Source: Lentisphaeria bacterium (GTDB lineage Bacteria > Verrucomicrobiota > Lentisphaeria > Victivallales > Victivallaceae). From it: a DNA stretch of 35,055 nucleotides. Position 1 is the first letter of the stretch, and every line of letters starts with the position of its first letter. The stretch spans positions 1-35,055 of the forward strand of contig JAFSYV010000178.1 in the NCBI GenBank assembly GCA_017443585.1, in the 5' to 3' direction. Of this stretch, positions 3,088-27,740 are shown one piece after another. Position numbers and translations under genes: made by a program. The notes beneath the pieces were generated by a model. The model searched no databases and had not been told where the DNA came from. It worked only from the letters and a program-made list of their open reading frames with translations.

Positions 3088-3088
3088 G

Positions 3089-22820: not shown

Positions 22821-23681
22821 TCACGCCCGGCCGGAAGAGCCGAAGAAGCGGATCTTCTGCCGGATGACCTCGCGCATGGCGGCGTCGGGATTTTTGCGGA
22901 GCACGGCGGGCCAGACCGCCATATGAGGCTGCTTTTTCAGCTCCTCCGCAAGCGCGGTGTTCCACGCCGTGAGGAGTTCCGAATAGATATTCACCTTGGT
23001 GATACCGTTGGTGATGGCCTCCCGGAGCTGGTCCGCCGGGGTGCCGGAGCCGCCGTGAAGGACCAGCGGGACCTCCCCCGCCGCCGCGGCGATCTCCCGG
23101 AGCCGGGGGATGTCCAGCCGGGGGGCCTTGATGTAGACCCCGTGGGCGGTGCCGATGGAAACGGCGAGGGCGTCCACACGCGTTTTTTCCAGAAACTCCC
23201 GCACACTGCCGGGTTCGGTCAGGGCGTCGGGGCCCGCGGCCCCCTCCCCGGAGCCCACCCAGCCGTTGCCCACGTGGCCCAGTTCGGCCTCAACGGTGAT
23301 GTTTTTGCCCCGGACGCTTTGGACCACTTCGGCGGAAAGGCGGATATTTTCCCCGAAAGGCGCGGCGGAAGCGTCGAGCATCACCGAGGTGAACCCCGCC
23401 TCAATGGCGGCCCGGACCTGTTCGATTTTCAGGGCGTGGTCCAGATGCAGGCACACGGGGACGCGCGCCTCTTCCGCGGCCTTCCTCGCCAGCACGGCCC
23501 AATAGGGCAGACGGCCGTTTTCGAGATCGGGCCACAGCGCCCCCAGAATGACGGGGGAGTTCAAGGCTTCGGCCTCGCCCACCACGGCCCGGATCATTTC
23601 CAGATCGGAAACATCGAACATGCCCACGGCGTAGCCGTTCTTCCGGGCGTCCGCCAACATTTCGCGCATATTGACCAGCAT
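22821..23681 (-). CDS. Class II (zinc) aldolase, FbaA/KbaY/GatY family, divergent
   Basis: A 286-residue class II aldolase-fold protein. Members cleave fructose- or tagatose-bisphosphate, or other 3-hydroxy-ketose phosphates, with a zinc ion. Core motifs are present: CLHLDHA with the catalytic Asp and zinc-binding His (about 78-84), VEAELGHVG, SIGTAHGVY and LHGGSG with the other zinc His residues, and ITKVNIYSELL. Two blocks differ from usual members: GMFDVSDLEMI near residue 20 (usually AFNVNN) and DASAAPFGENI near 104-114 (usually DGS.LPFEENI). The substrate is therefore uncertain. It lies 23 bases after kbl in one transcript with tdh, and AAAGGAG precedes the ATG. The context suggests threonine or glycine metabolism, but that is inference. 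Confidence 0.85.
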   Translation of the reverse strand: MLVNMREMLADARKNGYAVGMFDVSDLEMIRAVVGEAEALNSPVILGALWPDLENGRLPYWAVLARKAAEEARVPVCLHLDHALKIEQVRAAIEAGFTSVMLDASAAPFGENIRLSAEVVQSVRGKNITVEAELGHVGNGWVGSGEGAAGPDALTEPGSVREFLEKTRVDALAVSIGTAHGVYIKAPRLDIPRLREIAAAAGEVPLVLHGGSGTPADQLREAITNGITKVNIYSELLTAWNTALAEELKKQPHMAVWPAVLRKNPDAAMREVIRQKIRFFGSSGRA

Positions 23682-23704: not shown

Positions 23705-24892
23705 TCAGATGACGCCCGTGTCCCGCCCGGCCTTGCTGAAGGCTTCGATGGCGAAATCGATGTCCTCTTCGGTGTGGGCGGCGGAAAGCTGGGTCCGGAT
23801 CCGGGCCTGTTCCTTCGGCACCACGGGGAAGGAAAATCCGATGGCGTAGACCCCGTATTTGAGGAGCGCTTCGGCCATGGCCCCCGCCCGGCCCGCGTCG
23901 CCGATCATGACGGGAATGATGGGATGTTCACCCGGCTTGAGGGTGAACCCGGCCTCCTCCAGCCCCTTGCGGAACCGGGCGGCCAAAGCGGCGATATGAA
24001 GCCTTCTTTCCGGCTCGCGCTTGACGATCTCGAGGGCTTTCAGCGCCGCGCCCGCCACGGCGGGGGAAAGGGAGTTGCTGAAAAGGTAGGGCCGCGACCG
24101 CTGGCGCAGGATCTCGACGATCTCCTTCCGGCCCGCGGTGTAGCCGCCCCCGGCGCCGCCCAGGGCCTTGCCGAAGGTCCCCGTGACCACGTCCACCCGG
24201 CCCATGACGCCCCGGTACTCCAGGGAGCCCCGGCCGTTGGGGCCCATGAAGCCCGCGGCGTGGGAGTCGTCCACCATGACCAGCGCCTCGTAGCGGTCGG
24301 CCAGATCGCAGATCTCCTTCAAAGGCGCGATGGTGCCGTCCATGGAAAAGACGCCGTCGGTGGCGATGAGCCGGAACCGGGCCCCGGAAGCCGCCTGCAG
24401 CTGCCGCTCCAGGTCGGCCATATCGCCGTTGGCGTAGCGGAGCCGCTGGGCCTTGCAGAGCCGGATCCCGTCGATGATGCTGGCGTGGTTCAGCGCGTCG
24501 CTGATGACGGCGTCCTCGGGGCCGAGGAGCGTTTCGAAGAGCCCGCCGTTGGCGTCGAAGCAGGAGCTGTACAAGATGGCGTCGTCCATGCCGCTGAATT
24601 CGGCGACCTTGGACTCCAGCTCCTTGTGGAGCTCCTGGGTGCCGCAGATGAAGCGCACCGAGCCGAGGCCGAAGCCGTAACGCTCCATGGCGGCGGCCGC
24701 CGCGGCGATGATCTCGGGGTTGTCCGCCAGCCCCAGGTAGTTGTTGGCGCACATGTTGAGCAGTTCCCGGCCGTCGGCCAGGGTGAGCCGGGGCTTCTGG
24801 GGCGAAGAGATGATCCTTTCGGCCTTGTAGAGCTTGTCGGCCCGGATCGTTCCGATGGTGGAAGCGAGATACTCCTGAAATTTGCCGTACAT
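23705..24892 (-). CDS. kbl: Glycine C-acetyltransferase (2-amino-3-ketobutyrate CoA ligase)
   Basis: Kbl splits 2-amino-3-ketobutyrate with CoA into glycine and acetyl-CoA, the second step of threonine breakdown through Tdh. The 395-residue PLP enzyme of the alpha-oxoamine synthase family has [14 protein letters not shown] near 46-59, [17 protein letters not shown] near 77-93, [12 protein letters not shown] (D208, H211), and the PLP lysine K242 in [14 protein letters not shown]. Length matches E. coli Kbl (398). It starts four bases after the tdh stop, so it is certainly co-transcribed with it, and probably coupled in translation. BioF and HemA are close relatives, but the adjacent tdh makes Kbl the clear choice. 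Confidence 0.95.
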
Positions 24893-24896
24893 GGTG

Positions 24897-25937
24897 TCAA
24901 TCCTCCCAGTTGAGCACGACTTTGCCGGACTTGCCGGAGTTCATGGCGTCGAATCCCTTCTGGAATTCGGTATAATGGAAGCGGTGGGTGATGACGGGGC
25001 CGATGTCGAGTCCCGACTCCAGCATGCTGGTCATCATGTACCAGGTCTCGAACATTTCCCTGCCGTAGATGCCCTTGATGGTGAGACCGTTGAAGATGAT
25101 CTTGCTCCAGTCCACCTCCGTACCGGGGGGCAGGATCCCCAGCTGGGCGATCTTGCCGCCGTGGCTCATGGAGTCGATCATGCCGTTGAGGGCGGCGGCG
25201 TTGCCGGACATTTCGAGGCCGATGTCGAAGCCTTCCTTCATGCCGAGCTTCTTTATGACTTCGGCGAGGGAGGTCTCCTTCGTATTCACCGCGAGATCCA
25301 CCCCCATTTTCCTCGCCAGTTCCAGCCGGTAGTCGTTGACGTCGGTGATGACCACGAACCTCGCGCCCGCGTGGCGGACGATGGCCGCGGCCATGATGCC
25401 GATGGGGCCCGCCCCCGTGATGAGCACGTCCTCGCCCAGGACCCGGAAACTCAGGGCCGTGTGGGTGGCGTTGCCCAGGGGATCGAAACAGCTCAGCACG
25501 TCGGTGCTCAAGGCGGGGTTGCAGTGCCACACGTTGGTGACGGGGATCACCAGATATTCGGCGAAGGCCCCGTCCCGGTTGACCCCCACGCCGGAGGTGT
25601 TGGGGCAGAGGTGGCGGCGTCCCGCCAGACAGTTCCGGCAGCGGCCGCAGACGATGTGGCCCTCGCCGGAGACAAGTTCGCCCTCGGTCACGTCGTGGAC
25701 GTTGCTCCCGAAGGCCGCCACGGTCCCCACGAACTCGTGGCCGATGGTCATGGGGGGCTTGATGGTGGCCTGCGCCCAGGCGTCCCAGTTGTGGATGTGG
25801 ACGTCCGTGCCGCAGATGGAGGTTTTCTTGATCTTGATGAGCACGTCGTTGATGCCGTACTCCGGAACGGGTTTTTCCACCATCTCCAGTCCGACGCCGG
25901 GCCGGGCCTTGATGATCGCCTTCATCATTTTCTTCAT
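24897..25937 (-). CDS. tdh: L-threonine 3-dehydrogenase (zinc MDR family)
   Basis: Tdh oxidises L-threonine to 2-amino-3-ketobutyrate with NAD. The 346-residue medium-chain dehydrogenase has the catalytic zinc ligands Cys42 ([12 protein letters not shown]) and His67-Glu68 (TIGHEFVG). The structural zinc cysteines are in [15 protein letters not shown] (about 97-111), and the NAD-binding loop is [14 protein letters not shown]. The DVHI-NWDAWA stretch and PxT-IGHE spacing are typical of threonine dehydrogenases. I start it at the ATG 25937, with AGGA nine bases upstream and the predicted transcript start at about 25980. Longer in-frame starts would lie upstream of the promoter -10. It heads the tdh-kbl-aldolase operon and is divergent from the XRE-cupin regulator. 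Confidence 0.95.
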
Positions 25938-25986
25938 TTCCGCATATCCTTCCTCGTTGGATGATTTGAAAAGCTGCACAACACAT

Positions 25987-26015
25987 ACTATATTATCAAA
26001 AAGGCGCAATGTCAA
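25987..26015 (-). promoter_or_regulatory. Promoter of the tdh-kbl-aldolase operon
   Basis: On the minus strand TTGACA (26010-26015), 17 bases, TATAGT (25987-25992). The full-consensus -35 stops five bases short of the 20-bp palindrome at 26021-26040, so a protein bound there could block or recruit RNA polymerase. Confidence 0.75.
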
Positions 26016-26020
26016 GGCCG

Positions 26021-26040
26021 TTGTTTAATATATTCAACAA
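26021..26040. promoter_or_regulatory. 20-bp near-perfect palindrome, candidate operator of the XRE-cupin regulator
   Basis: TTGTTTAATATATTCAACAA matches its own reverse complement at 18 of 20 positions (only positions 6 and 15 differ). It lies between the divergent tdh promoter and the regulator start, 19 bases before the ATG at 26060. It also contains -10-like words (TAATAT, TATATT) pointing toward the regulator. This is the expected place for autoregulation and control of tdh. Confidence 0.65.
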
Positions 26041-26059
26041 ATTTTTCAGAAAAGCAAAC

Positions 26060-26641
26060 ATGAAGACAGAAGAGATCGCGACGCCGAAGGTCATCGGCGG
26101 CAATGTCCGGAAGAAACGTCACGAACGGCACTGGTCGCTGGATGAGCTGGCCGACTCCAGCGGCGTTTCCAAGGCGACGCTGTCGCAGATCGAATCGGGC
26201 CGGGTGAATCCCACCGTGGCGACGCTGTGGAAGATCGCCCAGAGTCTGGAAACGGAGCTGAGCCAGCTGATCCGGAACGACGGGGAGATCTCCCGCACCT
26301 TCACCGTGACCCGGAGCGGCGATTTGCCGCGGCTCACCGGCACCACCGGGGTGGAGATCAAGGTGCTGTCGCCCATCACCATGGCGGGGAAACTGGAACT
26401 CTATTTTCTCACCCTCGAACCGGGGGCGGTGCTGGCCTCCGAGGCCCACGAACCGGGAAGCTGCGAACTCATCACCGTCATTTCGGGCACGGTGGAAGTC
26501 GGAGCCGGGAGGAATTCGGCCAAGCTGGAGTCGGGGGACGTGCTCGACTACCAGTGCGACACGAGCCACCGCATCTCCAATCCGGGCAAAGTCGCGGCCA
26601 CGCTCCACATGGTGGTGAACTTCAAGGGCGCTTCAATGTGA
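26060..26641 (+). CDS. XRE-family regulator with C-terminal cupin domain
   Basis: A 193-residue one-component regulator. The N-terminal helix-turn-helix (about 13-66) reads GGNVRKKRHERHWSLDELAD, then SGVSKATLSQIESGRVNPTV and LWKIAQSLETELSQLI. The C-terminal cupin (about 110-188) has LELYFLTLEPGAV, EAHEPGSCELITVISGTVEV, LESGDVLDYQCDTSHRISN. This fusion usually senses a small metabolite such as an amino acid or polyamine and represses neighbouring catabolic genes. The ATG at 26060 is favoured; an ATG at 26009 would read through the palindrome and add unrelated residues. No good ribosome-binding site is seen. It is divergent from tdh, so threonine or a product of its breakdown is the likely ligand. 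Its last 20 bases overlap the convergent metallophosphoesterase gene. Confidence 0.9.
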   Translation: MKTEEIATPKVIGGNVRKKRHERHWSLDELADSSGVSKATLSQIESGRVNPTVATLWKIAQSLETELSQLIRNDGEISRTFTVTRSGDLPRLTGTTGVEIKVLSPITMAGKLELYFLTLEPGAVLASEAHEPGSCELITVISGTVEVGAGRNSAKLESGDVLDYQCDTSHRISNPGKVAATLHMVVNFKGASM

Positions 26642-27740
26642 TGAGGAGGATCTCCCCCGGCCGCCCCAGCCGCAGGGGGAAGCCCCGCCAGAGCCAGGTG
26701 CCGTTGGAAACGAGGAGCGTCATGCCCTGCGCCTCGTAGCGTCCGGAAACCCAGCCGCCGTTGAAGAGGGCCACAAGGAGATCGAGCCCCAGGACCATGC
26801 CTCCGTGGGTGTGGCCGGAAATCTGCAGCCCCACCCCCGTTCCGGCGCTGTTCAGAGCCGTCTTGGGCCGGTGGGCGAGGAGGACCGTGCAGCTCCCCTC
26901 CGGGATCCCGGCCAGCGCTTTCGGAACGTTTTCCCCGTAGGTTTCCTGCAACCGGGGATCGTCGAAGAAGTGTTCCGCCGCCTTGTCTCCCGTTCCCGCC
27001 AGATAAACGCCGTTGGGCAGCCGGACCGATTCGTTGAAGAGGAGCCGCACCTTCGAACGGCGGAAAAAGGCGAGCCACGGCTCCAGCCCGGAATAGAATT
27101 CGTGATTGCCCGGCACCCCGAAAACGCCGAGGGGGGCGTCGAGTTTGTCCAGCTCCGCCAGAGCCTTTCCGCACCGGGCGGGGGAGCCGTCCATCAGGTC
27201 GCCCCCGAGGGCGATGAGATGGGGTTTCAGGGCGTTGACCCGCTTCACGAGGCGGGCGATCTTTTCGGGCTTCACCGTGTGATCCACGTGGAGATCGGTG
27301 AGAAAAACGATCGTCATCCCCTCCGCCGCGGGAGGCAAGTTCTTGAGCTCGACCGTGTACCGGGTCAGCCGGGGCTCGGCGGCTCCGCCGGCCAGCGCCA
27401 GCGCGCTCAGGATCCCGGCGGCAACGCAGAGCCCGAGGTTGATCCTGTTCCAGAAGGACTGCGCCTTTTTCCGGAAGAAGAGCCGCACGGCCTCGCAGAT
27501 GAGCCAGAAACCGACAAGGAAGTAAAAAGCCCCGTGGAGCCACGCGCCGCCGAGGATGACCGCGTCGGGCAGATCGGGAGCGAAGAAGTGGCCGCCCAGG
27601 ACCAGGAACCACTGGAACTTGAGCGCCCCCGCCGCCAGCGGCAGAGCCGGCAGTACCTTGAAGTACCACTTCACCTTCAGGGGCCAAATCACCCGCCACA
27701 CCAGAAGCCCCAGCAAGATCACGGAAAGGGCGAACAGCAT
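26622..27740 (-). CDS. Membrane-anchored calcineurin-like metallophosphoesterase, LpxG/YaeI-like
   Basis: A 372-residue protein with about four hydrophobic N-terminal segments (2-20, 28-50, 60-82, 100-118) and a metallophosphoesterase domain from about 130. The five metal motifs are complete: TDLHVDH (D149, H151), GGDLMDG (D181), GNHEF (N212, H213), LAHRP (H290) and SGHTHGG (H310, H312). The layout fits YaeI/YkuE-type phosphodiesterases. In Chlamydiae, also PVC bacteria, the related LpxG hydrolyses UDP-2,3-diacylglucosamine in lipid A synthesis, so the same job is plausible here but not shown. GAGGAG lies 12 bases upstream of the ATG, a long gap. It has its own promoter and is divergent from the PIG-L operon. 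Its stop falls inside the end of the XRE-cupin gene. Confidence 0.85.
   Translation of the reverse strand: MLFALSVILLGLLVWRVIWPLKVKWYFKVLPALPLAAGALKFQWFLVLGGHFFAPDLPDAVILGGAWLHGAFYFLVGFWLICEAVRLFFRKKAQSFWNRINLGLCVAAGILSALALAGGAAEPRLTRYTVELKNLPPAAEGMTIVFLTDLHVDHTVKPEKIARLVKRVNALKPHLIALGGDLMDGSPARCGKALAELDKLDAPLGVFGVPGNHEFYSGLEPWLAFFRRSKVRLLFNESVRLPNGVYLAGTGDKAAEHFFDDPRLQETYGENVPKALAGIPEGSCTVLLAHRPKTALNSAGTGVGLQISGHTHGGMVLGLDLLVALFNGGWVSGRYEAQGMTLLVSNGTWLWRGFPLRLGRPGEILLITLKRP

Follow-up and report, generated by a model that had tools for sequence, protein, structure and literature searches.

A conserved palindrome is very probably the operator of an XRE–cupin regulator encoded opposite threonine catabolic genes in Lentisphaerota

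The window analyzed here, a 35,055-nucleotide stretch of contig JAFSYV010000178.1 from a Lentisphaeria bacterium, contains two genes of threonine breakdown, tdh and kbl, that diverge from a gene encoding an XRE–cupin regulator. In a tree, the genome of the window falls among Lentisphaerota. The genes, promoters and sites of the locus are listed below.

23705–24892, minus strand: kbl, glycine C-acetyltransferase (2-amino-3-ketobutyrate CoA ligase); NCBIfam NF005394, 636 bits (cut-off 460)
24897–25943, minus strand: tdh, zinc-type L-threonine 3-dehydrogenase; NCBIfam NF003808, 561 bits (cut-off 380); TIGR00692, 475 bits (cut-off 458)
25966–25994, plus strand: most likely regulator promoter; −35 TTGAAA at 25966–25971, 17 bp, −10 TATATT at 25989–25994; 10/12 consensus
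25987–26015, minus strand: tdh promoter; −35 TTGACA at 26015–26010, 17 bp, −10 TATAGT at 25992–25987; 11/12 consensus
26021–26040, no strand assigned: very probable operator (O3), TTGTTTAATATATTCAACAA, an 18/20 palindrome; identified by matrix score and conservation in relatives
26042–26061, no strand assigned: possible decayed second operator (O4), TTTTTCAGAAAAGCAAACAT; 21 bp from the main site; weak
26060–26641, plus strand: XRE–cupin regulator gene, 193 amino acids; HTH at about residues 9–71 and cupin at about 98–187 (Pfam HTH_3, Cupin_2)

Two further genes flank this set. A class II aldolase-family gene (22821–23681, minus strand), which reaches only the general TIGR00167 cut-off, lies 23 bp after kbl on the same strand and may belong to the operon. 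A calcineurin-like phosphoesterase gene (26622–27740, minus strand) is convergent with the regulator gene, the two sharing 20 bp at the 3′ end of the latter.

The regulator exceeded the Pfam cut-offs for both HTH_3 (3e-14) and Cupin_2 (5e-9), with the HTH domain N-terminal to the cupin domain as in the XRE–cupin architecture. In an AlphaFold2 model (mean pLDDT of 88.8), helices occupy residues 9–71 and a β-barrel occupies residues 98–187. The closest solved full-length structure was an HTH_3 regulator from Vibrio cholerae (PDB 1y9q), both by sequence (6e-15) and as rank 1 in Foldseek, where a strong E-value was accompanied by 30% identity, a TM-score of about 0.5 and a large r.m.s.d.; the latter two values suggest that the two domains of the model are oriented differently from those of 1y9q. 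The fold matches ranked after 1y9q were HppE enzymes, which are iron-binding cupins of similar length. Across 91 sequences, the recognition-helix region S37–E45 and the cupin residues H130, E136 and H170 were invariant or nearly so. These three residues occupy His/Glu/His ligand positions of metal-binding cupin motifs and may bind a metal, but the second histidine of motif 1 was replaced. Assignment as PuuR, the putrescine regulator, was rejected: the domain order is the same and NF007408 was the top NCBIfam match, but the score of 48.4 bits is far below the equivalog cut-off of 211.

An initial annotation of this DNA had singled out positions 26021–26040 as an operator candidate, and its description of the palindrome was confirmed. 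The site is self-complementary at 18 of 20 bases and lies exactly 5 bp from the TTGACA of the tdh −35, as had been claimed, with 19 bases separating its other edge from the regulator start at 26060. Dinucleotide shuffling of the 116-bp intergenic region gave an equally good palindrome in 1.1% of cases, so that the palindrome taken by itself is suggestive and moderately surprising; its conservation in relatives, described below, makes it secure as a real site. The whole window contains one further palindrome as good, a T-run/A-run at 3088. When scored with a leave-one-out matrix trained without the window, 26021–26040 reached 26.2 bits, compared to 1.8 bits for the runner-up in the 35 kb. A pattern search of the 4.1-Mb assembly returned the operator as the sole full match, with the next candidates carrying two to three mismatches, and a single good genomic site fits a local regulator. 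A wider regulon in the same genome was considered and rejected, the three other, weaker pattern matches being two mismatches off each. The O4 position scored 1.7 bits, under the threshold, and the equivalent spot in one relative (L004) scored 7.4 bits; its placement agrees with the tandem operator spacing of relatives. XRE–cupin regulators are expected to have few targets and to use a palindrome of about 15–25 bp near a promoter, in the intergenic region beside their own gene; the 20-bp site agrees with this, and 26021–26040 is very probably the operator of the adjacent regulator.

The palindrome is positioned differently with respect to the two predicted promoters: it is upstream of the tdh −35, and it is within the regulator leader, downstream of the regulator promoter. 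From the hexamers, the start points were estimated at about 25980 for tdh and about 26001 for the regulator. The regulator −10 overlaps the tdh −10 in the window. The minus-strand promoter on the tdh side is kept in relatives, and the regulator promoter recurs in them as TTGACA or TTGATA (TTGA(C/T/A)A overall), followed after 17 bp by TATATT. The initial annotation had placed the palindrome over −10-like words on the regulator side. Such a word is present (TATATT at 26029–26034), but it was rejected as the regulator −10, as no −35 lies at 16–18 bp from those words; the conserved TTGAAA-17-TATATT element at 25966–25994 is most likely the regulator promoter. Opposed promoters with a common −10 were found in 29 of 46 related regions, compared to 1.4 expected from shuffles, so the sharing of a −10 is established among the predicted promoters of relatives. 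The same pair was found in just 5 of 40 Spirochaetota regions (0.2 expected), making the arrangement mainly Lentisphaerotal.

Conservation of the site was assessed with the symmetrized window site as a fixed query; each region was compared with its own dinucleotide shuffles, and a match was called at P ≤ 0.01. Of 45 distinct regions upstream of the regulator in the order, 33 held a match, as did 34 of the 46 loci of the Spirochaetota type; the compared regions are related, so these counts are not independent. Within the order, tdh occurs both with and without the regulator. The motif was present at the same threshold in all 21 other regulator-adjacent tdh promoters. Twelve further tdh genes have no regulator beside them. 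Eleven of these belong to genomes without a regulator orthologue, and none of their promoters carried the motif (lowest P of 0.05); some of these genomes encode a distant XRE–cupin paralogue with about 30% identity. For the twelfth (G119), the regulator is located on another contig, and the tdh promoter still matches the motif at 15 of 18 specified bases (P = 0.01). These promoters too are related, which makes the counts less independent, but their direction is uniform. The palindrome thus passed the test that the initial annotation had named, conservation in orthologous regions, and its proposal of one regulator site between two divergent genes is supported by the comparative evidence. Sequence comparison establishes that the site is present, is conserved and is tied to the regulator.

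Regulator loci that lack a divergent partner gene usually lack the motif too (the exceptions are L007/L113 and L187), which suggests that the site is maintained by the divergent gene as its target more than by autoregulation. In one incomplete genome (G105; L007, L048 and L113), the regulator, operator and promoter are kept and no tdh was found; the gene upstream of the regulator there, in the same orientation, encodes a class III aminotransferase. In two other cases, L033 (L179) and L037 (L188), the regulator-upstream region is without an operator, and the regulator is located upstream of homoserine dehydrogenase and aspartokinase genes, behind a PutP-like symporter gene. A separate operator-like site of 19.5 bits is present in one close relative, G107 (L195, 1501–1520), 178 bp ahead of homoserine dehydrogenase, which may be an extra target in that clade. 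Because the sites at the same position are weaker in G103 (8.8 bits) and G114 (6.8 bits) (L199–L201) and absent from the genome of the window, we do not count homoserine dehydrogenase as part of the system here.

When GTDB genomes were scanned, the regulator family was found to reach into Spirochaetota, where the partner is a different enzyme. It is a short-chain (GalE-like, SDR-type) L-threonine dehydrogenase that is not homologous to the tdh product of the window, matches L-threonine dehydrogenases in the PDB with an E-value of 3e-128 and usually has kbl after its gene. Other Lentisphaerota partners are an L-threonine aldolase (closest PDB entry, 5e-141) or a MarC/NAAT-family transporter; NAAT members (MarC/YchE and SnatA) have been associated with the transport of threonine and glycine (PMC12003319). 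One of these four partners lies opposite the regulator in 76 of 90 distinct relatives: 20 zinc-type dehydrogenases, 40 SDR-type dehydrogenases, 4 aldolases and 12 MarC transporters. On the regulator tree, the partner types form clusters; a minimum of 15 changes is needed for the six labels, ‘none’ among them. Operators of Lentisphaerota follow the consensus TTGTTnAATATATTnAACAA, and those of Spirochaetota follow GTTCAnTATAnTGAAC. The link to threonine or glycine suggested by the initial annotation is supported by this set of partner genes, as threonine enzymes and a transporter make threonine or a close product the best guess for the ligand. A copy of the Spirochaetota-type module was also found on a contig labeled Gaiellales (Actinomycetota; L152), reflecting either transfer or misbinning.

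We estimate a probability of about 75% that an XRE–cupin dimer at 26021–26040 represses both tdh–kbl and its own gene and is released by a ligand from the threonine pathway. The dimer would bind the palindrome with its center at about −50 of tdh, and overlap of its footprint with the −35 would hinder RNA polymerase at the tdh promoter. The same dimer, sitting about 20–40 bp downstream of the regulator start point, would block its own gene within the leader. A ligand bound in the cupin domain would release the dimer, with threonine most likely in this role and glycine or 2-amino-3-ketobutyrate possible. Plentiful threonine would then lead to release, and the tdh and kbl products would convert threonine to glycine and acetyl-CoA. 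We infer dimer binding, repression and relief by ligand, the sign by analogy, because the XRE–cupin members of Pseudomonas and DbuR repress. As the one strong site left in the window is upstream of the tdh −35 and not on the −10, the geometry alone would also allow activation.

The main rival is accordingly one in which the same regulator, at the same operator, activates tdh from upstream of the −35 and represses only the regulator gene. The fixed distance of the site from the −35 speaks for it, although this spacing fits the repressor reading as well: of the 29 regions whose promoters share a −10, 18 have the operator edge 5–6 bp from the −35 of the target, with differing partner genes, and in some of the remaining regions the operator is about one or two helical turns further off (15 and 25). 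An XRE-family regulator with activator function, NceR, has also been reported (PMC10470515). We nevertheless consider activation unlikely. As many as four operator copies occur in many relatives, one pair at the shared promoters and another near the regulator start; the copies of a pair are 19–21 bp apart, a tandem spacing of 19 bp is found in both phyla, and the window retains one strong copy and perhaps one decayed copy. The extra copies cover the promoter (−10 and start region), which suits occlusion, and the tdh promoter, so close to consensus, should need little help. A center near −50 is in addition an unusual spacing for an activator. The Pseudomonas members examined, moreover, all repress (PMC7901475).

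In a second alternative, the palindrome is the site of another protein, such as an Lrp-type global amino-acid regulator, and the XRE–cupin neighbor is incidental. In Escherichia coli, tdh–kbl is indeed under Lrp control. This alternative is very improbable here, as the motif is missing before tdh in the 11 regulator-free genomes, is present where the regulator is unlinked and accompanies the regulator to unrelated partners and to another phylum; a lone good site in the genome is also unlike a global regulator. Least probable of all is that the palindrome acts as RNA (a hairpin or attenuator), for which its position within the predicted regulator leader would speak, or is a chance AT-rich palindrome, as the 1.1% figure might allow: the predicted folding of the leader is no more stable than that of shuffled sequences (z of −0.07), no terminator and no Rfam match were found, the copies in relatives are also on promoters outside leaders, and chance is excluded by conservation.

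By architecture, placement and operator form, the regulator belongs with the XRE–cupin local regulators. The Pseudomonas representatives (PauR, PsdR, ErfA, PA1359 and others) are local, use palindromic sites and, in all cases studied, inhibit transcription (PMC7901475). They share with the present system the HTH and cupin domains, a gene beside its target, a palindrome in the promoter region and a metabolic enzyme or transporter as the target, and PA1359 controls a gene resembling that of the threonine exporter RhtA (PMC7901475). They differ in their targets and host phyla, and binding and sign are predictions in the present case. The tandem spacing of 19 bp and the common −10 come from relatives of the window; the Pseudomonas systems were compared on other features. 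Another parallel is DbuR of the Pseudomonas putida dbu operon, an XRE–cupin repressor with a 20-bp imperfect palindrome (PMC12724383). As here, its gene diverges from an amino-acid catabolic operon with the 20-bp palindrome in between; unlike here, the target serves the use of D-branched-chain amino acids and the palindrome is described as being at the promoter −10 instead of upstream of a −35.

In a literature search that missed most subscription journals and regulon databases, we found no paper that joins an XRE–cupin regulator with threonine dehydrogenase or describes this regulon. At somewhat less than even odds, we propose that the regulators form an undescribed family of cupin-based sensors of threonine (or of glycine or aminoketobutyrate) in Lentisphaerota and Spirochaetota, in which one operator code is kept while non-homologous enzymes are exchanged and in which, in Lentisphaerota, divergent promoters share one −10 so that polymerase serves one gene at a time. 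In two phyla where few regulators have been studied, the analysis gives one regulator family a likely function and an operator that can be tested, and it predicts how threonine breakdown is switched on in both. It also offers a clean case of a regulator–operator pair outlasting the replacement of its target enzyme, a zinc-type for an SDR-type threonine dehydrogenase. Should threonine prove to be the ligand, the family would represent a threonine sensor built on a cupin.
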